Virus record (IMG/VR): IMGVR_UViG_3300042519_002267
Coordinates: 1-35,129 of that record
Source: a virus
DNA: 35,129 bases
Reading direction: 5' to 3' (one strand)
Part shown: positions 2,919-29,868 of the stretch, in pieces
Numbering within the stretch: the stretch's first letter is position 1
Layout of the letters: every line of letters begins with the position of its first letter
Made by a program: the position numbers and the translations under genes
Notes under the pieces: model-generated
Seen by the model: the letters and a program-made list of their open reading frames with translations, nothing else
Databases searched by the model: none
Told to the model about the DNA's origin: nothing

Positions 2919-3578
2919 GTGCCTACGTCTCCGACATTCAAATACAGAGGCCCTGACAAGCGCTGCCCGTTCCCGTTCAATCGGGACGCGGCGACATCGC
3001 CAGGCGGAGGCTATAAATACGTCACGCTAACCGAAACCAGCGGCGACGAAGGATTGGCCGAGGCGTGCCGGTTGTGGTGGCTGCTCCAAGAGGTCGTTTT
3101 CACGCCCACGGGTTCTTCAGAGTATCCACAGACCCCGTATCCTCCAATTACGGCATCATTTAGCGAGGTCCATACGGCCAATAATTCTGTCGAGCCGGTT
3201 GATAGGGTCGCATCAACCGATCGCGAGTTCTTGGGGGATAGTGGTAATAGTGGAGGTGGCAGTGAAGATGGGTGGAGCTACTACGCGTTCCTTAGAATAG
3301 CCTACGTATCCTCCGAGTGGCGACTTTATTACCAGTTTTCCTTTAGCGCTCGGACTTTTGTAGGTGAGTATTTTCCTGGTGAGCCTGACCCTCAACCTTA
3401 TTTTTTTAGCGTTTACATAAGTTCCAGTGAGGACGACAGCGCCGGAAGCGGAACATTTAGCCTGTTTGGGTACACTCTTAATTGGTATGGTGCGGGGTAT
3501 ATGGATGGAATCGGCGAGTATATGCCTATTACAGGCGGAGGTATTACCGCGACTTCCACGTTTTACTCGCTCGTTTGA
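2919..3578 (+). CDS. Tail-region structural protein, unknown
   Basis: Protein of 219 residues starting at a GTG one base after the upstream stop; no nearby ATG would preserve the N-terminus. The composition is strongly Tyr, Ser, Gly and Thr rich (many YYF/WSYY-type stretches), typical of beta-structured tail-tip or receptor-binding proteins. No signal peptide or membrane helix. The function is not recognised; context is the tail-tip gene cluster upstream of the fibre. Confidence 0.6.
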   Translation: MPTSPTFKYRGPDKRCPFPFNRDAATSPGGGYKYVTLTETSGDEGLAEACRLWWLLQEVVFTPTGSSEYPQTPYPPITASFSEVHTANNSVEPVDRVASTDREFLGDSGNSGGGSEDGWSYYAFLRIAYVSSEWRLYYQFSFSARTFVGEYFPGEPDPQPYFFSVYISSSEDDSAGSGTFSLFGYTLNWYGAGYMDGIGEYMPITGGGITATSTFYSLV

Positions 3579-9420: not shown

Positions 9421-9614
9421 GCCTGCCTGACCGCAACAGCGTAGCGCCCGCCGATCTCATGGCCTACGCGCTCATCGACTGGCAGCCGTCGCAGCTTGTC
9501 CGCTGCCCAACGTGCAAGGAGTCCGGCCTCGCTGGCTACTCCGCCCACAAGCTCGTCGCCCTCGCCTGCCAGAAGTGCGGGCCGATTTCGCTGCCTGCCG
9601 GACTGGGCCAATAA
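9417..9614 (+). CDS. Small zinc-ribbon protein, last gene of rightward unit
   Basis: Protein of 65 residues. The start is ATG 9417 overlapping the holin stop (ATGA); a longer frame from 9309 would run antiparallel to operon logic and lacks support. CPTC and CQKC pairs about 20 residues apart form a zinc-ribbon-like site. Its stop lies directly before the terminator stem at 9615. Role unknown; it could bind nucleic acid or be structural. Confidence 0.6.
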   Translation: MSLPDRNSVAPADLMAYALIDWQPSQLVRCPTCKESGLAGYSAHKLVALACQKCGPISLPAGLGQ

Positions 9615-9651
9615 AAAGCCCCACTTGTTACAGTGGGGCTTTGGTTTTTTT
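9615..9651. terminator. Bidirectional intrinsic terminator between convergent units
   Basis: An 11-bp perfect stem (AAAGCCCCACT at 9615-9625 with AGTGGGGCTTT at 9632-9642, loop of 6) is followed by a T7 run on the plus strand at 9645-9651. On the minus strand it is followed by a T-run from 9617-9613. It ends the rightward late unit and can also end the leftward cassette/early unit. Confidence 0.9.
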
Positions 9652-9723
9652 ACAGTGCTTATGGGTTTTTAGCCCCATAAACAAAAAGTTTACTTTTTTC
9701 CAGTTTAGCAGGCTTTAAGCCGA

Positions 9724-9773
9724 CCTAACTGAAGCCGACTAAACTGTAAAATAGTGCGGTTTAGTCGGGCTTA
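9724..9773. repeat. Inverted repeat at left edge of cassette array
   Basis: CCGACTAAAC (9735-9744) pairs with GTTTAGTCGG (9759-9768). The outer arms CCTAA (9724-9728) and TTAGG (9771-9775 region) extend the stem. There is no T-run, so it is not a standard terminator. An RYYYAAC-like box (ACCTAAC, 9723-9729) suggests a decayed or atypical attC/attI-like element beside the first complete cassette boundary at 9810. It could also be an RNA-stabilising hairpin. Confidence 0.5.
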
Positions 9774-9809
9774 GGCGTATCTGACGGTACTATTTTCCAC
9801 CTATCGCTG

Positions 9810-9816
9810 GTTGGGC
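9810..9816 (+). other. Cassette 1 left boundary, R'-type core site
   Basis: GTTGGGC preceded by CTATCGCTG, like the L'/R' ends of the complete sites. It is the exact complement of R'' (GCCCAAC) of the next site at 10151, which marks 9811-10237 as one cassette. No convincing R''/L'' partner lies upstream, so it may be an attI-like or secondary target, or the remnant of a damaged attC. Confidence 0.6.
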
Positions 9817-9826
9817 AATGCAGACA

Positions 9827-10072
9827 TCAGCGCGAAGTGTAGGGAACGGCTGGTTTAGCACCATCCAGAAAAACTTGCTCGGGCTTGTTCATCCCGACGT
9901 AGTAGTTTACCGCATCGGATGGCGTCCATTTTTCAGCCTTCATCACGCGCTCCCAAAGTCTTTGATAGCTCGGGGTGCTTTGTGCGTTGGCGAAGTCATA
10001 CCCAGCTAGAAATGCCTCACGGAATTTAGGGTCATTATTCAGCCTCTCTTGTGTTTCTATTGAAGGACTCAT
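9827..10072 (-). CDS. Cassette 1 protein, unknown
   Basis: Protein of 81 residues from ATG 10072; a frame reaching 10099 would read through the leader. The sequence (FREAFLAGYDFANAQ ... YQRLWERVMKAEKWTPSDAVNYYVG) is soluble and helical, with no known motif. The 43 bp preceding the start are nearly the same as those preceding the cassette 10 gene. Its stop lies 11 bp from the left cassette boundary. Expression is presumably leftward with the early operon. Confidence 0.65.
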   Translation of the reverse strand: MSPSIETQERLNNDPKFREAFLAGYDFANAQSTPSYQRLWERVMKAEKWTPSDAVNYYVGMNKPEQVFLDGAKPAVPYTSR

Positions 10073-10112
10073 GTTTATTTTTCGTCGTTTTTTTAACACG
10101 TTGCCGCGTCAT
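10070..10112 (-). promoter_or_regulatory. Conserved leader with small upstream frame (cassette 1 copy)
   Basis: This 43-bp leader matches 14392-14434 at 38 of 43 positions by eye. On the minus strand both encode an upstream frame beginning MT, then RVKKTxKNKHE, overlapping the start of the main gene. A shared leader on unrelated proteins suggests a translational control or reinitiation element. Confidence 0.5.
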
Positions 10113-10150
10113 GTACATTTATTGGTTATTTCGGAAGGGATACACCAGCC

Positions 10151-10243
10151 GCCCAACCAGGCGCTAGAGCCAAGATGCGCATTGGCCCGCTGATTGTTCG
10201 ATTGGCTGGGAGAGCGCATCCGGCTCAGCTTAAACCGTTAGGC
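10151..10243 (+). other. attC site A
   Basis: R'' GCCCAAC 10151-10157, spacer of 5, L'' GCTAGAGC 10163-10170, stem continuation GATGCGC 10174-10180 with GCGCATC 10214-10220, L' GCTCAGC 10223-10229, spacer of 7, R' GTTAGGC 10237-10243. One L'' base has no partner in L' (extrahelical). Nearly the same sequence recurs at site E. Confidence 0.85.
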
Positions 10244-10467
10244 AGAATGAATTTCAGCACAGCGCGAATGGTGCGTAGCTCTTGTGCGGTGAGTTCTCCG
10301 CACAGCAAGCGCAGCTCAGCGTCACTTGCCCGATCAAGTTTTTTAGCTCTCGCTTGTGTGCCGTGCCACTGACTCACACGCGCCGTCCATTCTTTTTCCA
10401 TAGGTTCAAGTTTGGCGTGGAAGGCTTTGGTTCTTTCGTCTCTTAGGTCTTCTTGGAAGTTTATCAT
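10225..10467 (-). CDS. Cassette 2 protein, unknown
   Basis: Protein of 80 residues from ATG 10467; the only longer start is a TTG at 10503. It is highly charged and helical (DLRDERTKAFHAKLEPMEKEW ... AELRLLCGELTAQELRTIRAVLKF), with no recognised domain. The last codons read into attC A, and the stop lies in its L' box. The C-terminal PNGLS is therefore encoded by the recombination site. Confidence 0.6.
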   Translation of the reverse strand: MINFQEDLRDERTKAFHAKLEPMEKEWTARVSQWHGTQARAKKLDRASDAELRLLCGELTAQELRTIRAVLKFILPNGLS

Positions 10468-10567
10468 AAAAGTGTGGCTCGTTGGTTTATTGCGGAGAGC
10501 CAAGCCGCTAGACTTCTATCGTTGGTCACGTTACCCGTTCGGAGAACGGAAATTAAAAGGCATCAGA

Positions 10568-10656
10568 GCCTAACCAAGCGCTACAGCGAATAGCCCGCCA
10601 CGCCGCTAATTGTTCGGCTAGTTTCAGTGGGCTATCGCTGAGCTTAGACGTTAGGC
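10568..10656 (+). other. attC site B
   Basis: The most regular site. R'' GCCTAAC 10568-10574, spacer of 5, L'' GCTACAGC 10580-10587, L' GCTGAGC 10637-10643, spacer TTAGAC, R' GTTAGGC 10650-10656. An 8-base L'' faces a 7-base L' (extrahelical T on the bottom strand), and spacers of 5 and 6 give standard plus-strand polarity. The stem extends as AATAGCCC with GGGCTAT. Confidence 0.9.
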
Positions 10657-10790
10657 AGAAATAAAGACCACCATGTGCGGTCGAAGTTGTGCCAGAAATC
10701 GAAGCGGTGCCCTTGCTCGCCCGCTGGCCAAAGCACGAATTGAACTGCTCCGGTTTTCTGGTTTCGGCGCGCACGGCATTTGTCGCACAT
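10644..10790 (-). CDS. Cassette 3 protein, unknown, CxxC-containing
   Basis: Protein of 48 residues from ATG 10790. The frame is open upstream through attC C to 10904 but that part is site sequence. It begins MCDKCRARR and continues to HRFDFWHNFDRTWWSLF, a Trp-rich C-terminal half. The CxxC may bind metal with other residues. The stop TAA lies in the spacer of attC B. An overlapping minus frame (10553-10870) is less protein-like. Confidence 0.5.
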   Translation of the reverse strand: MCDKCRARRNQKTGAVQFVLWPAGEQGHRFDFWHNFDRTWWSLFLPNV

Positions 10791-10831
10791 GCCATATTCC
10801 CACTCGCGGGCGTGTGCTCTTCGACGATATA

Positions 10832-10924
10832 GCCTAACCAAGCGCCGCAGCGAATGACCACGCTTGTCACGCAAATTGATCGTGTACCGCTTAGAGGTGG
10901 TCATCGCTAGGCTTTACGTTCGGC
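10832..10924 (+). other. attC site C
   Basis: R'' GCCTAAC 10832-10838, L'' GCCGCAGC, stem ATGACCAC with GTGGTCAT, L' GCTAGGC 10906-10912, R' GTTCGGC 10918-10924. R'' and R' do not match each other. R' is instead the exact complement of R'' of site D, showing that the cassette between them was inserted at the G/TT point of R'. Confidence 0.85.
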
Positions 10925-10925
10925 A

Positions 10926-11339
10926 ATGAAGATGAATCACGAAAAGCAATCCATACTTCTCCCGCCCAAATGGCTAAAAGAGTGGCTACCGATCCTAGCC
11001 AGCTTTGGAATACCAGGATCAGCCATAGTGGCGTATCTGAAGGTTGTCTGGCGAAATACAGACTCAACGGCGTTGGTAAGCACACGGACATTAATAATAG
11101 CATCGCTCGGAATAGTGTTCTGCTTGGTTGGATTGTTTTGGGTGTCATTTGAAAGAAAAATCAAAATGAATGAAATGGAAAATACTATTAAACAGATGAA
11201 TGAAATTATGGAGCTTAAAAACAAGGAGATTGAAGAACTAAAGAAGAAGCAAAAGTCAGAATTCAAACTACCAGATTATATTCCGATGTCAGAAAGAATT
11301 AAACCGTCCGGCGAAGGTGACGTTATTTTTAAGGCATGA
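10926..11339 (+). CDS. Cassette 4: membrane-anchored coiled-coil protein with TerL-like C-terminal tail
   Basis: Protein of 137 residues, the only cassette gene reading with attC polarity. The ATG is 1 bp after R', and the stop is 10 bp before R'' of site D. Hydrophobic segments lie at about 20-40 and 52-76, the second clearly a membrane helix (LIIASLGIVFCLVGLFWVSF). A Lys/Glu coiled coil follows (about 80-115). The last 23 residues match the last 23 of the TerL at 26529 without gaps: pattern LPxY(I/V)PMS(E/Q)RI(K/R)xxGxG(D/E)x(I/M)FKx, 12 identities. The gene is visibly more AT-rich than its neighbours, suggesting separate origin. Role unknown; it may bind a TerL partner such as the portal (inference). 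Confidence 0.8.
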   Translation: MKMNHEKQSILLPPKWLKEWLPILASFGIPGSAIVAYLKVVWRNTDSTALVSTRTLIIASLGIVFCLVGLFWVSFERKIKMNEMENTIKQMNEIMELKNKEIEELKKKQKSEFKLPDYIPMSERIKPSGEGDVIFKA

Positions 11340-11349
11340 AAACCAAGGA

Positions 11350-11452
11350 GCCGAACCAGACGCTACAGCGAATGAACTGCATTGTCACGGTGTGTGCTCC
11401 GAGCAGCACACACCGCGCCAACGCACTTCATCGCTGAGCTTAGACGTTAGGC
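11350..11452 (+). other. attC site D
   Basis: R'' GCCGAAC 11350-11356, L'' GCTACAGC 11362-11369, stem GAATGAA with TTCATC, L' GCTGAGC 11433-11439, spacer TTAGAC, R' GTTAGGC 11446-11452. Its inner region also holds an inverted repeat (GGTGTGTGCTCC with GAGCAGCACACACC). Confidence 0.85.
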
Positions 11453-11459
11453 AAGGCGA

Positions 11460-11618
11460 TCAATCGCAATCCCTCGCCAGTTCATGCCCAGCTAAGAATG
11501 CGTTTACCGTCCACTTTTTAAGGTAGTATGCCGCCATACCCAGAAGCGCAAAAGGCAGCGCGATAACTATGACTGGGGCGTTATCGAAAAGCCAGTCACC
11601 GATTTTTTGTTTGTTCAT
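11460..11618 (-). CDS. Cassette 5 small membrane protein B
   Basis: Protein of 52 residues. A transmembrane helix at about 14-33 (PVIVIALPFALLGMAAYYL) follows a short charged N-terminus. The start overlaps the end of the other cassette 5 gene by 23 bp, suggesting coupled translation. It is too short for family recognition. It could be holin/antiholin-like, toxin-like, or a superinfection-exclusion peptide. Confidence 0.55.
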   Translation of the reverse strand: MNKQKIGDWLFDNAPVIVIALPFALLGMAAYYLKKWTVNAFLAGHELARDCD

Positions 11619-11763
11619 TTATTTTTTCGTTTTTGCCGTGCATCATAAATCCAAGGATTATTATTCCGCACGGGATTTTATATCGGCCTGTTTCCCCTAG
11701 TGCGCTGATCGCCAGAATCCAGACGAAAAGCCACTCGTAAAATCTTGTCCAGTTGAAGTTCAT
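11596..11763 (-). CDS. Cassette 5 small membrane protein A
   Basis: Protein of 55 residues with hydrophobic stretches at about 10-22 (EWLFVWILAISAL) and 30-42 (IPCGIIILGFMM), then a charged tail (HGKNEKINEQTKNR). It is the upstream member of a two-gene cassette and overlaps its partner. Upstream sequence GGAAGGGATACACCAGC before site E is shared with cassette 1. Function unknown. Confidence 0.5.
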   Translation of the reverse strand: MNFNWTRFYEWLFVWILAISALGETGRYKIPCGIIILGFMMHGKNEKINEQTKNR

Positions 11764-11791
11764 TTAGTTATTCGGAAGGGATACACCAGCC

Positions 11792-11884
11792 GCCCAACCA
11801 GGCGCTGGAGCCAAGATGCGCATTAGCCCGCTGATTGTTTACTGTCGGGGGTGTTGCGCATCCGGCTCAGCTTGAGCGTTAGCC
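11792..11884 (+). other. attC site E
   Basis: R'' GCCCAAC 11792-11798, L'' GCTGGAGC 11804-11811, L' GCTCAGC 11865-11871, spacer TTGAGC, R' GTTAGCC 11878-11884. The left flank and left arm are almost identical to site A from about 20 bp upstream of R'', so one is probably a recent copy of the other. Confidence 0.85.
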
Positions 11885-12550
11885 AAGGCAGAGCGATTTC
11901 GGAAGCTCGTCCTTATCGAGCGTCTTTTTGAAGCCCACGTTTGCCGCCGTGTGAAAGCAGACTACGCCCTCGGGCTTCATGAATCCAGGCGCGGCTTTGC
12001 TTCCGTTCGTGCGGAGATCGTCAAGCGCAGCTTCCACCGCATCCGTCGTGAATATACCGCGATACAGCACCGGCACCAGCCCAACGCAAGCCGGAAGCAC
12101 GTCTTGCATTTTCACGATTCGCGGGTCAGCGCTCGGAATGCGTTGCGGCTCGGTTCCGTGCAAGCACCAGCGCGACACGTTGAAGAGGCTGAATCGTTTC
12201 TCGCCGATTCCGTATTTGCGCTGGATGCCAGCGCCCCACCATTCGCCAAAGTGACGCCCAGCGCCGAGTGTTTTCAGTTGGTCGAAGTTGCGAGCGACCC
12301 AACCAGCAAAGCCGAAGTTATCATCCTGCGGGGTTATCCAGCGGGTGCGGGAACCAGCGGCCATATAGTGCAACGCACCGTCAAGGTCGAAGACGCCAAG
12401 CGAGTGTTCGGGTATTGGTTCGTTTGCGGATAGTGGCGCGATATAGATTTGCGCGTTGGTGCCGTCGATCTTCTCAGTGATTATACATTCGCGGGAGAGT
12501 CGCGCCATATTCGGGAAGTCGGTGAAGTCTTTGTTTGTTTTATCGTTCAT
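11879..12550 (-). CDS. Cassette 6: ATP-dependent RNA ligase
   Basis: Protein of 223 residues. Motif I is EKIDGTN with the presumed adenylated Lys27. GSRTRWIT (about 66-73), DDNFGF, and HFGEWWGAGIQRKYG (100-114) match motifs of phage RNA ligases of the Rnl2/DRB0094 type. EGVV (194-197) is motif IV and GFKKTLDKDE (206-215) motif V. The enzyme seals nicked or cleaved RNA; in phages RNA ligases can repair tRNAs cut by host anticodon nucleases. The stop codon TAA lies inside R' of attC E. It is co-directional with the early operon but inverted relative to attC. Confidence 0.85.
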   Translation of the reverse strand: MNDKTNKDFTDFPNMARLSRECIITEKIDGTNAQIYIAPLSANEPIPEHSLGVFDLDGALHYMAAGSRTRWITPQDDNFGFAGWVARNFDQLKTLGAGRHFGEWWGAGIQRKYGIGEKRFSLFNVSRWCLHGTEPQRIPSADPRIVKMQDVLPACVGLVPVLYRGIFTTDAVEAALDDLRTNGSKAAPGFMKPEGVVCFHTAANVGFKKTLDKDELPKSLCLG

Positions 12551-12588
12551 AGTAATTTTAAGTTTATCGGAAATTAAAAAGCATCAGA

Positions 12589-12684
12589 GCCCAACCAGTC
12601 GCTAGACCTAATGTCCGCGCTGTGCCCGCTGATTATTTTATTGGTTTTAGGTTTTGCGGCCATAGGTCACCTCAAGCGTTAGGC
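12589..12684 (+). other. attC site F
   Basis: R'' GCCCAAC 12589-12595, L'' GCTAGACC 12601-12608, L' GGTCACC, spacer TCAAGC, R' GTTAGGC 12678-12684. The right end TCAAGCGTTAGGC is the same form as in classical resistance-cassette attC sites, supporting plus-strand polarity. Confidence 0.85.
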
Positions 12685-13389
12685 AGAAGGAACCCCGACC
12701 CACTGATCGGCCATTGCATCAGCGATTCCTTGGTATGTTTTCGAGCGCAGCTTCCAACGGTTGGCGGAAGGCGCGAGTTTGTTTTGTCCGCTGTCGGTTT
12801 GGTTCGACCAGCGTTCGACCATCTTCCCCGAGCCTATTGGCCATTCGACCATTCGACCGTTGAAGCGTTTCGTTCCGGTGAGCTTTGGCAGTTTATTCAG
12901 CCATAGGCAGGTTCGCTTGCTGGCGTCCTCGTAGAAGTCGTAGGGCTGTATGGTCTGGGTTGGTTTCTTGATTCGGGTTGAGATTATAGACACAGGGTTT
13001 TCGAGATACCACGGACGATCTCCGGCAATCTCGATCACCTCGCGGACGAAAGCCAAAGCCGCGTTTGTTTTATCATGCCCACGGCCTCGGTTATTCCAGT
13101 GGATTCCGGCGACGGTTAGATAGGTGCAGTCGGGATGCAGTCCGAAGCCGTCCCAATGCCCCGCTTTCATGGCTTCGCGGCAGTCGCCTTGGATATGATA
13201 GGGCGAGTTATCATCTGCGGGCAGTAGGTCACAGCTCCAGGCATCCAGACCGCGACTGCGGAAGGCTTCGCGCACGATTCCAGAATGCTCACAGCATACC
13301 AGGAAACGGGCATCAGAGCCCAACAAGGCGCTGGACTCAATGACCACGCTTGGCCCTTCGATTGTTTTGGTGTCAGGTAGAGTGGTCAT
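12679..13389 (-). CDS. Cassette 7: DNA methyltransferase-like protein
   Basis: Up to 236 residues. RFLVCCEHSGIVREAFRSRG (28-47) followed by DAWSCDLLPADD matches the SAM-binding start of a family of phage DNA cytosine-methyltransferase-like proteins. LHPDCTYLTVAG (85-94) corresponds to their HPPCTYL catalytic-loop region. A later stretch has RTCLWL and LPKL. In relatives the protein begins just before RFLV-type sequence; here that point has no ATG, and the open frame runs back through attC G to ATG 13389. A TTG near 13321 or that ATG must serve as start. The stop TAA lies in R' of attC F. Possible role: anti-restriction. Confidence 0.75.
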   Translation of the reverse strand: MTTLPDTKTIEGPSVVIESSALLGSDARFLVCCEHSGIVREAFRSRGLDAWSCDLLPADDNSPYHIQGDCREAMKAGHWDGFGLHPDCTYLTVAGIHWNNRGRGHDKTNAALAFVREVIEIAGDRPWYLENPVSIISTRIKKPTQTIQPYDFYEDASKRTCLWLNKLPKLTGTKRFNGRMVEWPIGSGKMVERWSNQTDSGQNKLAPSANRWKLRSKTYQGIADAMADQWVGVPSA

Positions 13390-13409
13390 GAGTCAGCTTT
13401 ACGTTGGGC
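13318..13409 (+). other. attC site G
   Basis: R'' GCCCAAC 13318-13324 and R' GTTGGGC 13403-13409 are fully complementary. L'' is GCTGGACTC, L' GAGTCAGC, and the stem ATGACCAC pairs with GTGGTCAT. It overlaps the 5' end of the methyltransferase-like frame. Confidence 0.85.
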
Positions 13410-13622
13410 ACACAGATGAGTCCACGGTATCGGCTTGGTGTTTGACGGTGCCGAATGCTCGTCCGGCTGCGGGTCACGGATTCGCAACCATCCATAGCCC
13501 TGCGGGTCTTCTCGATTGATCGTTTCAGCAATGGTCTTAAGGTCTTCGGGGGATGCACAGATATTGAATCCCGTGCCTTCGATGAGGCGTTTTACGCCGT
13601 TATGTTCGATGATGATTTTCAT
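13386..13622 (-). CDS. Cassette 8 protein, unknown
   Basis: Protein of 78 residues from ATG 13622. The N-terminal MKIIIEHNGVKRLIEGTGFNIC and the later EDLKTIAETIN suggest a small alpha/beta protein. The C-terminal part from about residue 68 is encoded by attC G, and the stop lies in its L' arm. A shorter native C-terminus may have been replaced on cassette formation. No family recognised. Confidence 0.6.
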   Translation of the reverse strand: MKIIIEHNGVKRLIEGTGFNICASPEDLKTIAETINREDPQGYGWLRIRDPQPDEHSAPSNTKPIPWTHLCAQRKADS

Positions 13623-13652
13623 GGTTTCGTTGGGTTAAAATTCGGAGACTGA

Positions 13653-13748
13653 GCTCAACCAGTCGCTACAGGCGAATGACCACGCTGTTACCTCTGATGC
13701 TTCGGGAGTCTCTGGTGTTGGGGTCATCGCTGAGCTTGAACGTTAGAC
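13653..13748 (+). other. attC site H
   Basis: R'' GCTCAAC 13653-13659, L'' GCTACAGG, stem CGAATGACC with GGTCATCG, L' CTGAGC, spacer TTGAAC, R' GTTAGAC 13742-13748. Slightly degenerate, but the box order and spacing match the other sites. Confidence 0.8.
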
Positions 13749-13991
13749 AGAAGGAAAACGGGAGCGGCGCACGCCCTTTTCGTCCACGATGCGGATTCCT
13801 TCGTCGATCATGGAAGACGCTTCATGCGATAAAACAATCCACGCACCCCAAGCACGATCCCTGTTTGTAAACATATAGTAAAAGCTCCACTCCCATTTAT
13901 TTGTTTCATGGTTAAAGTCGGCATATTCAATGCGCGCCCACTCGCCTTTAATTGGGTTTTTAGAGTCTTCTTTTAGATTTTTTGTTTTCAT
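13743..13991 (-). CDS. Cassette 9 protein, unknown
   Basis: Protein of 82 residues. It is Trp/Tyr rich in the middle (NHETNKWEWSFYYMFTNRDRAWGAWIVL), compatible with a small beta-sheet protein, and soluble. The stop TAA is within R' of attC H. The gene is more AT-rich than the structural genes. Unrecognised; as a cassette gene it is a candidate accessory or anti-defence factor. Confidence 0.65.
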   Translation of the reverse strand: MKTKNLKEDSKNPIKGEWARIEYADFNHETNKWEWSFYYMFTNRDRAWGAWIVLSHEASSMIDEGIRIVDEKGVRRSRFPSV

Positions 13992-14028
13992 GCTTTCGGT
14001 TGGTTATTAAGAATTAAAAGGCATCAGA

Positions 14029-14115
14029 GCCTAACCAGTCGATACAGCAAACGCATGTAATCGTCACGGGTTTGGCTAGTGGTTAGGGCTGCGCCTCTGA
14101 GCTTAGACGTTAGGC
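14029..14115 (+). other. attC site I
   Basis: R'' GCCTAAC 14029-14035, L'' GATACAGC, L' region CTGAGC, spacer TTAGAC, R' GTTAGGC 14109-14115. The left stem is more degenerate than in B or D, but the right end is identical to that of B. Confidence 0.8.
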
Positions 14116-14394
14116 AGATTTTAAGACAAAGTATGCGTGCTCCACATTGCATTCGTCCCATTCACCATGAAAGCACTTAGCCAGTGGTTGATATGCCTCA
14201 TGGATGATCTTACTGAGCCGTGCGTTTTCAGCTTCCAGCTCTTTAACCTTTTCGTGGTATTCGTGTGCCCATTTGGTTTCACTAGCCAACTCGCGCTCTA
14301 GTTCGCGGGCGAAGTCGGCATCGACGTATTCCTCGTCAGGATGCGCGTGGATTCCGCTAAATTTAGCATCCTCGGTTCTTGGTGTGTCACTCAT
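14110..14394 (-). CDS. Cassette 10: coiled-coil phage protein, unknown
   Basis: Protein of 94 residues from ATG 14394. SDTPRTEDAKF ... VDADFARELERELASE ... KVKELEAENARLSKIIHEA is the pattern of a common small phage protein with a C-terminal coiled coil. The stop TAA is in R' of attC I. It carries the same 43-bp leader as cassette 1 and follows rusA directly, so it is the first cassette in the transcribed direction. No complete attC lies on its rusA side. Confidence 0.7.
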   Translation of the reverse strand: MSDTPRTEDAKFSGIHAHPDEEYVDADFARELERELASETKWAHEYHEKVKELEAENARLSKIIHEAYQPLAKCFHGEWDECNVEHAYFVLKSA

Positions 14395-14434
14395 GTTTAT
14401 TTTTCGGCGTTTTTTTAACACGTTTAAACGTCAT
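14392..14434 (-). promoter_or_regulatory. Conserved leader with small upstream frame (cassette 10 copy)
   Basis: Same 43-bp leader as at 10070-10112. Here the upstream frame is complete: 15 codons from ATG 14434, with a TGA at 14387-14389 that overlaps the cassette 10 start region. This arrangement allows termination-reinitiation. Confidence 0.5.
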
Positions 14435-14465
14435 GTTTATTTATTAGTTATTTTAGAAACGGCCA

Positions 14466-14891
14466 TCAGAGCTCACTGATTTCAACGTGAATCGCTGGAG
14501 TCCATCCACTTCGCTTGCACAAAATTAGCGTGGTTACTTGCGAGTCATCGACCCAAAATCCCTGTTTCGTAAGCACGTCCATGAGGGTTTTTGCGCAGTT
14601 GTCCACGTCGGGGCGGGTTATTTTTGGCGTCGAAAAATCCAAATCTTCAGCCCGCTCCTTGTGCTTTTTTTCCTCGGCCTTGGTGAATGGAAAGACAAAG
14701 GTTATCGTCGCTTGAACTGCCCCAAAAAAAGGCGACTTGGGGCAATGCAACATGCAAAGGCGTGTAAGCCGATTCTCCTCTGCCACGATTTCCTTTTTCT
14801 TAAAGAACATGACGCGCCCGCATCGAACCATTACGCCCTTGTGCTGCGCGGTTGTTTTAGACGCGCCTGGAATGGTGAATGCGATTTTCAT
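14466..14891 (-). CDS. rusA: RusA-family Holliday junction resolvase
   Basis: Protein of 141 residues. RPDVDNCAKTLMDVL (about 93-107) and GFWVDDSQV (about 111-119) are the RusA signature, with the conserved Asp residues that bind metal. The enzyme cuts four-way junctions, probably to resolve replication or recombination intermediates before packaging. It is the last non-cassette gene of the leftward unit. Its stop TGA overlaps an ATG (TCTGATGG), the same boundary sequence that recurs at cassette edges. The start overlaps the upstream stop by ATGA. Confidence 0.9.
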   Translation of the reverse strand: MKIAFTIPGASKTTAQHKGVMVRCGRVMFFKKKEIVAEENRLTRLCMLHCPKSPFFGAVQATITFVFPFTKAEEKKHKERAEDLDFSTPKITRPDVDNCAKTLMDVLTKQGFWVDDSQVTTLILCKRSGWTPAIHVEISEL

Positions 14892-22853: not shown

Positions 22854-23344
22854 CCGACATAATCAATGGGCAAGTTCTAGCTGAAATGCTAGGCGTTACC
22901 ACTCGCCACCTTTCCAATTTGGAGAAGTCAGGAGCTGTGGTTAAAGTTGGGCGCGGGGGCTACGACATGAGGGCGAGCGTTCGGTCATTTTGCAATTACC
23001 TGCGGGCTCAAAATTCGCAATCCGACGAAGGCGATTACGAAGCCGACAAGGCTCGAAAGATGAAAGCGGACGCAGACCTTGCCGAGCTGCTTACGGCGAA
23101 AGAGGGTCGCAAGCTCGTCGAGATCGCCAAGATTGAGCGGAGGTGGGCAAACGCATTAAGCGGGCTGCGCGGAAAGTGCATGGCGATGCCTGCGCGGATT
23201 GGCCCGATGGTGGTGATTGCAAAGAGCGCGGGCGATGCGACGAAGCTAATCGAGTCCGAACTTCGTGACGCATTCAAAAGCATCGCGGACGATGGGCCTG
23301 ATGACGGCGCGGAAAGCGAAAGCGAGGAGGGCGAAGCAGAATGA
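22850..23344 (+). CDS. Terminase small subunit (Nu1-like)
   Basis: Protein of 164 residues from ATG 22850, which overlaps the HNH stop; an in-frame ATG at 22835 adds five residues. The N-terminal winged helix (NGQVLAEMLGVTTRHLSNLEKSG ... YDMRASVRSF) matches Nu1/gpNu1-type cos recognition. The central helical region and acidic C-terminus (ESESEEGEAE) suit oligomerisation and TerL contact. Directly upstream of TerL (ATGA). Confidence 0.85.
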   Translation: MTDIINGQVLAEMLGVTTRHLSNLEKSGAVVKVGRGGYDMRASVRSFCNYLRAQNSQSDEGDYEADKARKMKADADLAELLTAKEGRKLVEIAKIERRWANALSGLRGKCMAMPARIGPMVVIAKSAGDATKLIESELRDAFKSIADDGPDDGAESESEEGEAE

Positions 23345-26300
23345 GCCAAGCCATTAAAAAGTATTGCCGCGCCAACGACAAAGCCGCGCTGGTTCGGGCG
23401 TGGAAGTTTCTGCGTTGGCCGATGAAGATGACCGTTGCCGAATGGGCGGAGAAATACCGCATCCTCTCGCGTGGTGCATCGTCGGAGCCGGGTAAATATC
23501 GGTGCGACCGCGTGCCGTACCAGCGCGAGATAATGGAATCCTTCACCGCGCCGGATGTTCGGGAAACGGTCCTTTGCATCGCAAGTCAGGTTGGGAAGGC
23601 ATTAGACATTGAAACGCCAATACCTACGACCAAAGGCATGGTTCGAATGGGAGAATTAAAGCAGGGTGACATCGTTTTTGATGAGAGCGGCAATCCGTGT
23701 CGCGTGACATTTGCAACGGAGGTAATGCACGGCAGGGAATGTTTTGAAGTTAAGTTTTCGGACAACTCAAAGCTTATTGCCGACGCAGACCATTTATGGA
23801 CAGTTGACGATGAGCGCGACACAAGAAACCCCAAGCGAATCACTGCAACAACCTCGCACCTTAAAGCAATGGGCGTAGTCTGGGGCGGGAATCGTAATCG
23901 CTTTGCCGTTCCGGTGTGCGCTGCGGTTGAGCATAAACACAAAGAGCTTCCGATTGATCCATATGTTCTAGGTGTTTGGCTGGGAGACGGGCACTCTTAT
24001 TCGACAAACGTGACAATCCATGAGGCAGACATGGAGATTATGGAGCACGTTAAGGCGCGTGGATATTCTGCTGACATTGTTGATCGAACAGATACCGGAG
24101 TTCTCACGGTTCGTATGGGGCATGACCGACCTGCGCACATTTGCGGGCGCGGCCATGACTTGCGCGTGACCGGAAAGACTAAGGCTGGACATTGCGCGGA
24201 ATGCGGCAGGCTATCGGCGGTTGCTTCATTGCACGGCAAGCCAAGGGGTGACAGCGTAAAGAAAGAACTAAGAAGCCTTGGCATCAGGCTGCGCGATCTT
24301 GGATTGAAGGGCGAAGGCATGGCGAAGCACATCCCCGCAGAATACCTTACCGGAAGCGTTAAGCAGCGGCTTGATCTACTACGTGGGTTAATGGACACGG
24401 ACGGCACCTGCGACAAGCGAGGCGGCGCATCATTCACCGCAACGTCAAAGCCTTTATTTGATGGTTTTTGCGAGTTGATTTGCTCGCTTGGATACAAGGC
24501 CAGCGTAAAAACCAAACGGCCATTTTGCAGATACAAAGAGCGCAAAGTTTACGGCCGAATTGCTTACATCGTAAATATCAGGGCGTATTCCGAAACGCCT
24601 ATTTTTAATCTTAAAAGAAAGCGCGAGCGACAAGTGAGCATGGCGGGCGGGCGTACAAGCGAGACGATGCGGAGGCGCATAATCTCGATTAACCCTGTCG
24701 CGTCCGTTCCAGTGAGGTGCATTCAGGTTGACAGTCCATCTTGCCTTTACCTCGCCGGACGCGACCACATACCTACGCACAATACCGAGCTGATGAACAA
24801 CCTTATCGGCTACATGATTCATGCCGACCCGTCGCCTATCTTGGTAAAATACCCGACGCTTGACGCATCAAAGGGTTACTCGAAGGAGAAGCTTGATCCA
24901 ATGATCCAAGACACGCCTGTATTGGCTGCGCTGATACAAGACGCGAGGTCGCGTGACAGCGGAAACACGATTTTGCAAAAGAGCTTTCCCGGTGGTTTTA
25001 TCCGAATCGCGGGGGCCAACTCACCAAGCGGTCTGAGGCGGGCGTCGTGCCGCGTCGTGCTACAGGATGAAATCGACTCAGACCCATTTTCAGCAGGCGA
25101 GGAAGGCGACCCATGCGCGTTAGCGGATCGACGCGCCTCCAATTTTTCAAACGCGGTCAAAGTCAAGATGTCCACGCCTACGGTCAAGGGCCGCTCAAAG
25201 ATTTGGGCGCTGCTAGAGGATTCCGACTTTCGGACGTGGCGAGCGATTTGCCCGCATTGCAACAAGGCGCAAGAGCTGACATGGGCGGGCGTGCGTTGGG
25301 ACAAAGACGCCGAGGGCAAGGCGATGCCAGAAACCGCCTATTACTTGGGCGAGTGCGGTTGCCGGTGGACTGACCTTGACCGGCAACGTGCAATCGTTCG
25401 CGGGCATTGGCAGGCGCGGCAACCGTTCAAGGGGAGGCGCGGCTACCACTTGAGCGGCCTTTACCGGCTCATGGGTCACAAGCCTCAGTTCACATCCATG
25501 CTCCATGAGTTCGCGGTAGATTTTCTGGAATCGAAGGCGGGCGGGTCGGAGCGCATGAAGCCTTGGATGAACACATTTTTGGCGGAGCCGAGCGAGGAGG
25601 AATTTGAAAAGCTCGACGAAAAATCCGTGCTGGCACGCGCCGAGGACTACAACCCTGAGGAGCTGTTGCCTGCGGGCGTGCTGCGCATCGCGGCGGGTGC
25701 CGACGTGCAGGATGACCGAATCGAGTGTGAGTTCGTTGGATACGGCGAGGGCGAGGAAACGTGGGGGCTCGGGTATTACGTCATCCACGGCGACACGCAG
25801 GCGGATAATGTGTGGGAGGAGCTGGACTTGCTCCTTGCGAAAACCTTCACGCACCCTAGCGGCAAAATAATGGGCGCGGTGACGTCGTTCATCGATTCGG
25901 GGGCAAAGCAAGATCGCGTTTTACAGTTCACCGGCCCGCGCCGGTCGCGTGGGATTTTCGCGTCAAAGGGCCAAAACACCATCGGCAAACAAATTCCGAT
26001 CATGCAACGGAAACCGTCGATTAACAACAAGCGCAAGGTACATCAGTGGATGGTTGGCGTCACGGCGGCCAAAACGGTGATTTATTCGCGCATAATGCTG
26101 CCGGTGCCGGGCGCGGGCTCGATGCACTTCCCGAAAGGCCACGGGTACGACGCGAGGTTTTACCACCAGTTGACGAGTGAAAAGCGGATGACGCGGTACA
26201 GCCACGGGCGGCCGTATTACATTTACGAGGCGGGCAACCGGCGCAACGAGCCGCTAGACATTCGCGTGTATGCGCTCGCGGCACATCGGCGCGTTAACTT

Positions 26301-26529
26301 TGACAGCGTGGCGATCAAGGCGGAAATGGCGGCGATTGTTAAGCCGGTAGATGAGACAGCGCCAGCCGTCAAGGATTCCTTGACGGCTGAGCCTGAGCGC
26401 CTCGCCAGCAACATCATCGTCGTTGAGCGCGCGCCAATCGAACGTTCCGTTGCGCAGTTACCCGCTTACGTCCCCATGTCGCAGCGAATTAGGGATGGCG
26501 GTTCGGGCGAATCCATGTTCAAAAGATAA
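23341..26529 (+). CDS. terL: Terminase large subunit (GpA type) interrupted by an intein
   Basis: The precursor is 1062 residues; removing the 395-residue intein (87-481) leaves 667, the usual GpA size. The N-terminal AEWAEKYRILS ... YQREIMESF opens the ATPase. Walker A is split as ASQVGK (81-86) and TE (482-483). Walker B is VVLQDE (572-577). The C-terminal nuclease begins with AGADVQDDRIECEFVGYGEGEETWGL. GpA terminases cut at cos and drive packaging. The extreme C-terminus (from LPAYVPMSQRI) resembles the tail of the cassette 4 protein; in lambda this end of TerL contacts the portal. Confidence 0.95.
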   Translation: MSQAIKKYCRANDKAALVRAWKFLRWPMKMTVAEWAEKYRILSRGASSEPGKYRCDRVPYQREIMESFTAPDVRETVLCIASQVGKALDIETPIPTTKGMVRMGELKQGDIVFDESGNPCRVTFATEVMHGRECFEVKFSDNSKLIADADHLWTVDDERDTRNPKRITATTSHLKAMGVVWGGNRNRFAVPVCAAVEHKHKELPIDPYVLGVWLGDGHSYSTNVTIHEADMEIMEHVKARGYSADIVDRTDTGVLTVRMGHDRPAHICGRGHDLRVTGKTKAGHCAECGRLSAVASLHGKPRGDSVKKELRSLGIRLRDLGLKGEGMAKHIPAEYLTGSVKQRLDLLRGLMDTDGTCDKRGGASFTATSKPLFDGFCELICSLGYKASVKTKRPFCRYKERKVYGRIAYIVNIRAYSETPIFNLKRKRERQVSMAGGRTSETMRRRIISINPVASVPVRCIQVDSPSCLYLAGRDHIPTHNTELMNNLIGYMIHADPSPILVKYPTLDASKGYSKEKLDPMIQDTPVLAALIQDARSRDSGNTILQKSFPGGFIRIAGANSPSGLRRASCRVVLQDEIDSDPFSAGEEGDPCALADRRASNFSNAVKVKMSTPTVKGRSKIWALLEDSDFRTWRAICPHCNKAQELTWAGVRWDKDAEGKAMPETAYYLGECGCRWTDLDRQRAIVRGHWQARQPFKGRRGYHLSGLYRLMGHKPQFTSMLHEFAVDFLESKAGGSERMKPWMNTFLAEPSEEEFEKLDEKSVLARAEDYNPEELLPAGVLRIAAGADVQDDRIECEFVGYGEGEETWGLGYYVIHGDTQADNVWEELDLLLAKTFTHPSGKIMGAVTSFIDSGAKQDRVLQFTGPRRSRGIFASKGQNTIGKQIPIMQRKPSINNKRKVHQWMVGVTAAKTVIYSRIMLPVPGAGSMHFPKGHGYDARFYHQLTSEKRMTRYSHGRPYYIYEAGNRRNEPLDIRVYALAAHRRVNFDSVAIKAEMAAIVKPVDETAPAVKDSLTAEPERLASNIIVVERAPIERSVAQLPAYVPMSQRIRDGGSGESMFKR
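23599..24783 (+). other. Class 3 intein with LAGLIDADG endonuclease in TerL Walker A
   Basis: The intein has 395 residues, inserted between Lys and Thr of the Walker A. It begins with Ala (ALDIETPIPT) rather than Cys or Ser, and ends HIPTHN followed by Thr+1. The class 3 WCT triplet is present: Trp67 in DADHLWTV (block B position 12), Cys374 in PVRCIQV (block F position 4), and Thr393 in PTHN (block G position 5). Two endonuclease motifs are VLGVWLGDG (123-131) and LLRGLMDTDG (260-269). Between them a Cys/His cluster (C182, H186, C199, C202) forms a likely zinc finger. Splicing is needed for packaging ATPase activity. Confidence 0.93.
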
Positions 26530-28260: not shown

Positions 28261-29868
28261 ATGGCATCATCCACCCCAATGATTCTGGATCGATTCGGCA
28301 GGCCGATGAAGTATTTTATTGGTGAATACGAGGCCAGCCGCAACACCCGCGAGCGCAAGCTGCATGGATCATGGGACTACAACACGCGCCCCGAAACGGA
28401 AATGCTGCCGTTTTCGGATCGCAAAAAGATCATCGCCTACCTGCGCCGCTCACTGCGCAACAATCCAGTTGTGGCGGCGCTGGCCTTCCGCTACGCGCTG
28501 GCAATCGGCTCGCCAACGGTTCACGCAATCACGAATGACGGCGGCTTTAACGACCAAAAAGAACGGTCGCTTGAGCGCCGTTTGCGCTCGATAATGTACG
28601 GTTGCGGGTGGAGCTGGCACCGCATGCACAGGATTATTTCAGTGGAGACGCTAATTGCGGGCGAGGTTTTCGCGGTAGATGCCGAGGATCAAGTTCAGCT
28701 AATTCCTTCAGAGCTTTGCGGATCACCGGCCAAGCCCGAAAAGGGCGAGATCGACGGCATTATTTACGACGAAACGGGCGTTCCTTTGTTTTACCGCTTT
28801 GGCGTTCGCAAGCAGACCACGGATCAATTTCAGTCATCGGTTGTGTCGTTCGAGGAAAAGGACGGCGCGCAACTTATCCCCGCCGAGTTTGTTTCCCACA
28901 TCGGTACGCCCATGCGCATCGAGGAGCGCCGATTCTCGCCCATTCTTTCATCGGTCATCGCGCAGATTCAAAACCTTGACGACATCATAAAGGCCAAAGT
29001 AACGACGGTTAAAAACCAGTCGGCAATGTCGATGTTTTTTACGAAGAACTTTGACCCTGGAATGTTCGCTGAATCATCCGCGCTGTCATCGACGGTCGAG
29101 CAAAACGGCGGCACGATCTTGGCGCAGAGCGTGGCGCGTTCGTCTTATCAGGACATTAAAAACGGGTCGATAATGTACGGCGAAGTGGGCGAGGATGTGA
29201 AGCTCATAGAGCCTAGTTTAAACGCGCAGGACTTTTCATCTTTTGCGCTGATGTTGCTCGATCAAATTTGCGCACCGACCGGCCTATTTCCCGAGGAGGT
29301 TTTGGTTGGGTATCGGAATAGCAACTACTCATCCGCGCGCGCTGACCGCATCCGCTTGACGGACGTACTCAAAGACATTCGCCGCGAGCGGGAAGTGTTT
29401 TGCGACCGTGTGATTGAGCGCCAAACTGCCATTGCCGTTGATTCGGGAGAAATCCCAATCGAGGGCGACGGCATCGCGGACATTTCCTACGGGTGGCCCG
29501 TAGTTCGCGAGATCGACGAAACCAAGCACGTTCTCGCACAGGGCACGGCATTGGCGAACGGGTCGAAGTCTCTCGACGATGTATGCGCGGAAAACGGAAA
29601 ATATGCCGATCAAGTACAGCAACAGGTTGTGCGCTCGGCGGTACGCTGGGCCAAGAACGTGCGGGCTTATGCGATGTACGCGGCCCCGACGAAAGAGCAG
29701 ATCGAAGCGCAACAGGTGACCGCACAGGAGATCATGGCCTACATGCCAAACGCCACCGCCGCGAGCGAGGCAATCAATGCATTGGCAAATGCCGACGCGG
29801 CAGCGGTCAATGCCGAGGCCAACGCGGCGCGGGCAAGTGTTGGCGCAACAGAAATTCCACCCGTCTAA
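28261..29868 (+). CDS. Portal protein (lambda gpB type)
   Basis: Protein of 535 residues, the usual size of the lambda portal family. RRSLRNNPVVAALAFRYALAIGSP, the basic clip/stem region, QIQNLDDIIKAKVTTVKNQSAMSMFF and PTGLFPEEVLVGYRNSNYSSARADRIRL are conserved features. It forms the dodecameric DNA channel and docks TerL. An Ala-rich coiled tail ends the protein (AINALANADAAAVNAEANAARA). Confidence 0.9.
   Translation: MASSTPMILDRFGRPMKYFIGEYEASRNTRERKLHGSWDYNTRPETEMLPFSDRKKIIAYLRRSLRNNPVVAALAFRYALAIGSPTVHAITNDGGFNDQKERSLERRLRSIMYGCGWSWHRMHRIISVETLIAGEVFAVDAEDQVQLIPSELCGSPAKPEKGEIDGIIYDETGVPLFYRFGVRKQTTDQFQSSVVSFEEKDGAQLIPAEFVSHIGTPMRIEERRFSPILSSVIAQIQNLDDIIKAKVTTVKNQSAMSMFFTKNFDPGMFAESSALSSTVEQNGGTILAQSVARSSYQDIKNGSIMYGEVGEDVKLIEPSLNAQDFSSFALMLLDQICAPTGLFPEEVLVGYRNSNYSSARADRIRLTDVLKDIRREREVFCDRVIERQTAIAVDSGEIPIEGDGIADISYGWPVVREIDETKHVLAQGTALANGSKSLDDVCAENGKYADQVQQQVVRSAVRWAKNVRAYAMYAAPTKEQIEAQQVTAQEIMAYMPNATAASEAINALANADAAAVNAEANAARASVGATEIPPV

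Follow-up and report, generated by a model that had tools for sequence, protein, structure and literature searches.

A mobile cassette of one phage clade encodes a predicted membrane protein ending in a TerL-like tail, a candidate packaging decoy

Why should a small cassette gene in a phage genome end with the same peptide as the large terminase subunit (TerL) of that phage? The question is raised by the fourth cassette (cassette 4) of a gene array in the window, that is, the whole stretch of DNA analysed here, an IMG/VR virus record of 35,129 bases. The features compared first are as follows.

10926..11339, + strand: cassette-4 gene, an ORF for a 137-aa protein with two predicted membrane helices, one long helix, and a C-terminal tail resembling that of TerL
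11268..11336, + strand: TerL-tail-like C-terminal peptide LPDYIPMSERIKPSGEGDVIFKA of the cassette-4 protein
23341..26529, + strand: terL, GpA-family terminase large subunit with a LAGLIDADG intein (Pfam GpA_ATPase 1.1e-68, GpA_nuclease 2.7e-67, Hom_end 2e-7)
26458..26526, + strand: TerL C-terminal tail LPAYVPMSQRIRDGGSGESMFKR, kept in all clade TerLs behind a variable linker
28261..29868, + strand: portal protein of the lambda family, presumed partner of the tail (Pfam Phage_portal_2 2.8e-27)

The peptides LPDYIPMSERIKPSGEGDVIFKA and LPAYVPMSQRIRDGGSGESMFKR align without gaps, with 12 of 23 residues identical, and both terminate at a stop codon. A preliminary description of this DNA had reported the match at 11268-11339; it located the tail correctly but included the stop codon, the tail proper being 11268-11336. 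BLASTP of the cassette-4 protein against TerL gave 35.8 bits (E 5e-7), and against the 4301 frames of the clade the TerL tail was recovered at E 1.7e-4. The ungapped BLOSUM62 score of the tail pair was 70, and the top score of 500,000 tail shuffles was 38. The tail core of the clade, L.xY[VI]P[MI]S[QE]R....G.G...F, is present at the extreme C-terminus of the cassette-4 protein, with nothing after it; the cassette tail departs from residues invariant among the TerLs at positions 5 (V to I), 9 (Q to E), and 14 (G to S). A motif of only 23 residues might be thought to recur by accident, but the expected count in the searched set is about 3e-5, both tails end at stop codons, and the second known copy of the cassette retains the motif despite seven changes in the tail. 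Chance resemblance, which has a negligible probability, is ruled out by these shuffles together with the profile and the scans of sequence collections described below. The shared tail is real and far above chance.

The two tails are nevertheless dissimilar as DNA: 37 of 69 bases are identical (53%), and the same codon is used at only 2 of the 12 shared residues. A recent DNA copy of terL is therefore excluded as the source of the tail, as the preliminary description had argued from the codon differences. The GC content is 41% for the tail DNA, 39% for the rest of the cassette gene, and 56% for terL.

A position-specific scoring matrix (PSSM) was built from eight distinct TerL tails, with the cassette tails excluded, and run on 578 kb in six frames. 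The two cassette tails scored 37.0 and 35.2 bits, whereas the best chance 23-mer of 578,132 scored 8.9 and the next-best C-terminus among other frames of at least 60 aa scored -5.2; nothing stood out besides the tails of TerL and those of the two known cassette copies. A first degenerate DNA pattern of the tail, scanned over IMG/VR, gave three matches, all TerL tails of close relatives, and two longer patterns gave 11 matches each, of which 10 were TerL tails and one was the second copy of the cassette; these scans possibly omit the window's own record. A looser pattern had zero matches in GTDB (257 Gb of genomes from bacteria and archaea). Since the PSSM and the pattern scans matched nothing else, the motif appears confined to the TerLs of one phage clade and the cassette protein. 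A general motif of unrelated proteins is thus excluded, since neither the genomes of bacteria and archaea nor distant TerLs contain the tail; it is uncommon in unrelated proteins and conserved in the TerL relatives of the clade. No similar tail mimics were found among the other cassettes of the array.

What, then, does the tail do in TerL? In the comparison of clade TerLs (16 loci listed), the linker between nuclease and tail is hypervariable, whereas the pattern L(P)xYVP(M/I)SQR...GGxG...F is retained in the final 20-odd residues, so that the conservation of the peptide claimed earlier holds across the clade. The TerL of G010, the most distant member (79% to the reference), has an unrelated linker, yet ends in LPSYVPISQRVNGGGGTSMFRQG (LPSYVPISQRV). 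Of the more distant GpA TerLs (about 40-46% identity), 55 were inspected, and many combine a variable linker with a different short terminal peptide, typically GF[VA]N[SGR]W[RK]; this ending behind a variable linker is seen many times among loci L045-L123. A conserved peptide behind a variable linker is what one would expect of a tethered docking peptide, and this role is supported because the tail is kept while the linker is rewritten, also in distant GpA TerLs. The tail region of TerL (607-665) has low confidence in the AF2 model, whose mean pLDDT is 49. As for the intein of the window terL, TerL frames of at least 1045 residues in G001, G007, G008, G009, and G010 suggest a LAGLIDADG intein there too, whereas G002-G006, G011, and G012 have the short form of TerL.

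By analogy with lambda, the TerL tail probably grips the portal or capsid. The shared tail might instead bind another partner, such as the small terminase subunit (TerS), a virion-assembly protein, or a host factor, for which the cassette protein would compete or which it would recruit at the membrane. The portal is indicated by knowledge of lambda only, and a phage-encoded partner would explain a clade-specific tail without singling out the portal. Moreover, variation in the tail is not matched by variation in the portal: the portals of the window and G004 are 98% identical, and their tails differ at positions 11-13 and 22-23. Tail variants tracking portal type were not seen, and because the variable residues ignore the portal sequence, only the invariant core of the tail could be the contact. 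On the other hand, TerS binds the N-terminus of TerL in lambda, and a host factor predicts the motif in proteins of hosts or other phages, where none was found. The lambda TerL docks on the portal through a C-terminal portal-binding tether (PMC9026076), in agreement with the preliminary description, and the TerL and portal of the window are of lambda type (Pfam GpA and Phage_portal_2). We therefore regard a partner other than the portal as rather unlikely.

By prediction, the cassette-4 protein has a pair of membrane helices and one long helix and ends in a free tail. Hydropathy indicates two membrane segments, with peaks near residues 20-42 and 46-81, and the AF2 model, built from two sequences only (mean pLDDT 62.5), has helices at 15-25 and 31-43 and a long helix at 50-112, the tail being disordered from 113. 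The membrane anchor proposed earlier is thus upheld at the level of prediction. With two membrane crossings, both ends of the protein would be cytoplasmic. No match was found in Pfam, GpA included, nor among the models of PADLOC-DB 2.0.0 at E 0.1, nor in the PDB, and there was no convincing PHROG family; matches to phrog_1955 (E 0.003) and KcsA (E 0.25-3.5) were attributed to the composition of membrane helices or coils and discarded. Annotated phages, plasmids, and GTDB genomes yielded no relatives, the GTDB search detecting close relatives only. The sole relative is a 91% identical gene in contig G003 (IMGVR_UViG_3300046007_008332), which makes two known copies in all; a weak match at 2935-3081 of G002 is an unrelated small membrane ORF.

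This architecture allows a different action, in which the portal or procapsid on the tail would cluster the membrane helices, and membrane damage would lead to abortive infection rather than competition. The predicted two-helix anchor, the long helix, and the free, ligand-like tail are compatible with such a sensor-effector, known defences of the Avs family sense portal and TerL, and integrons store defence genes. However, the protein has no known toxic or pore-forming domain and no PADLOC, Pfam, or PDB match, and we consider this action quite unlikely.

Whether the gene belongs to the phage or travels through it is addressed by its surroundings.

9615..9642, + strand: terminator-like hairpin closing the late operon, just ahead of the cassette array; conserved in G003
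10918..10924, + strand: GTTCGGC R'-type core, left edge of cassette 4; homology to G003 begins here and the flanks are unrelated
11350..11452, + strand: attC of cassette 4 (R'' GCCGAAC ... R' GTTAGGC), with a 27-nt inverted repeat at 11372-11431 and a regex match at 11350

DNA homology between the window and G003 extends exactly from the core (GTTCGGC in the window and GTTGGGC in G003, each divided after the first G) to the attC R' box after the gene. The bottom strand of the cassette-4 attC folds at -36.9 kcal/mol (z -7.4), and those of the two cassette copies form long hairpins (z -7.4 and -5.9). The cassette is the first past the late-operon terminator in G003 and the fourth in the window. 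Cassette 4 is an attC-bounded, integron-type gene cassette that is mobile between array positions. It lies on the + strand, in the usual orientation before its own attC, whereas the other array genes of the window are on the - strand. The array occupies 9600-14600 of the window, and arrays are also present in G003, G004, G006, G011, and G012; attC arrays thus occur in six clade contigs, and cassette 4 in two of the six. No integron integrase (PF00589) was matched in 10 clade contigs, which are possibly incomplete; a complete integron would include a tyrosine recombinase, and the array is without one. Clusters of attC without integrase are known in phages (Qi et al. 2023; PMC9892861), and integron cassettes are known reservoirs of anti-phage genes (PMC12409362, reviewing Darracq 2025, Kieffer 2025, and Getz 2025). 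No host integron with the cassette-4 gene was found.

Several other observations concern the arrays and their vicinity. The arrays of the window and G003 sit directly behind the late-operon terminator, and several stop codons of the - strand cassette genes of the window fall inside attC. An RNA ligase cassette (PF09414; 11879-12550, -) has copies of about 85% identity in G004 and G011. At 12679-13389 (-) lies a gene for a DNA methyltransferase-like protein (phrog_757); its first ~26 residues are encoded inside attC, and other frames of G006 begin with the same stretch. A sulfotransferase gene (PF13469; 5887-6696, +) follows a large, repeat-bearing, tail-fibre-like ORF.

No promoter was found for cassette 4, which sits behind the terminator and opposite to the neighbouring cassettes. 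With no promoter and a terminator ahead, the gene may be silent in the window phage. These data bear on the idea that cassette 4 serves the phage, anchoring procapsids or terminase at the membrane as an aid to late assembly or timing. Its + orientation after the late operon and, in G003, its first place past the terminator would suit such a role; the terminator and missing promoter speak against it, as does the presence of the cassette in a minority of the array-bearing contigs, and assembly functions are unlikely in accessory cassettes. A phage-serving gene is accordingly improbable.

The two cassette copies were compared for signs of constraint on the tail. The window and G003 copies differ at 8 of 342 bases in the gene body and at 14 of 69 in the tail; of the 13 residue changes, 7 are within the 23 residues of the tail (Fisher p 0.0014). 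Each of these seven lies at one of the 12 columns (of 23) that vary among TerLs (p = 0.003), and the core is unchanged. This restriction to TerL-variable columns suggests that the cassette tail and the TerL tail are under the same constraint, and hence may have the same partner. Each cassette tail has 12 residues in common with the TerL of its own phage and 10 with that of the other, and the residue at position 7 (M or I) matches the own TerL in both phages. Such matching is only suggestive, because there are just two copies, and the TerLs of other members (G002, G012) score as well or better. The divergence between the window and G003 extends into attC, so that the tail need not have evolved fast: the 3' part may instead have been exchanged by recombination. 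Per site, we counted roughly as many amino-acid changes as silent ones between the copies, for which reason purifying selection cannot be claimed on the tail alone.

We tentatively propose, at a probability of roughly 40%, that the protein of this mobile cassette imitates the docking tail of TerL while tethered to the membrane and, as the likeliest reading, serves as a packaging decoy hindering this type of phage. The clade-specific tail shared by the two proteins, the arrangement of linker and tail in TerL, and the attC-bounded mobility of the gene underlie this proposal. Judged from the sequences, the tail would imitate that of TerL through descent or close mimicry, most likely as a decoy. 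If expressed, the two-helix protein would insert in the inner membrane, and its long cytoplasmic helix would hold out the C-terminal tail. Several tails presented in this way would occupy the site of the TerL tail on the portal of the procapsid, terminase-DNA complexes would then be unable to dock, and genome packaging of this phage type would be impaired. Cassette 4 would accordingly be an interference or defence gene shuttling between host integrons and phage cassette arrays. That a phage should carry a decoy against itself would be odd, unless the gene is not expressed, acts only at certain times, or is directed at other phages. Perhaps the phage acquired the cassette from a host integron, where it would act against these phages, and now carries it without expressing it. 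The preliminary description had imagined a packaging regulator, a factor against competitors, or a host-derived defence gene; the specificity of the motif, its conservation in TerL, the lambda-type TerL and portal, and the predicted anchor agree with this interpretation in part. Its portal and packaging mechanism is plausible by analogy.

Satellites are known to interfere with packaging, as in the case of Ppi, which blocks TerS, and Rpp, which redirects the terminase. As proposed here for cassette 4, these are small proteins of accessory elements that disturb terminase function; they bind the terminase, whereas cassette 4 would mimic the terminase tail and block its docking site, and no sequence relation was found. 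T4 Imm and P22 SieA are small phage-encoded membrane proteins of superinfection exclusion, directed at competitors, that block DNA entry; cassette 4 also encodes a small, predicted membrane protein carried by a phage but would act on packaging. Like the tether of lambda gpA (TerL), the peptide follows a nuclease domain and a linker, in a genome with a lambda-type portal and a GpA-family TerL; unlike it, the peptide is also found on a non-terminase, predicted membrane protein and has a clade-specific sequence, with portal binding assumed by analogy. Cassette 4 resembles integron-borne anti-phage cassettes (PMC12409362) as an attC-bounded gene without known family that is possibly anti-phage, but it lies in a phage array without integrase, has no match to a defence model, and its activity is putative. 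The attC cluster without integrase resembles those of other phage genomes (PMC9892861), but here arrays are present in six contigs of a single clade, and the TerL tail of the phage reappears in one cassette. Cassette 4 is best filed as a variant of packaging interference, portal binding being putative. In the literature searched, of which coverage was partial, we found no report of a protein joining a membrane anchor to a TerL tail, nor of packaging blocked by imitation of the docking peptide of the motor.

If this proposal is true, packaging can be blocked through mimicry of the motor's own docking peptide, and the short C-terminal peptides of GpA terminases are contact points copied by other elements. 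A simple search rule would follow, namely to look for non-terminase proteins ending in a TerL tail, and GF[VA]N[SGR]W[RK] ends on proteins other than TerL could expose further mimics. It is conceivable, though doubtful, that cassette 4 represents a new class of anti-phage or inter-phage weapon, in which a mobile, membrane-tethered tail titrates the portal, stops packaging, evolves under the constraints of the TerL tail, and is exchanged between host integrons and phages via attC recombination. With the decoy proposal, one of the many uncharacterised integron-type cassettes would gain a function, and phage arrays would be tied to conflict between phages or between host and phage. Should the mechanism prove wrong, the conserved tail would still be a candidate contact between motor and portal that is directly testable.
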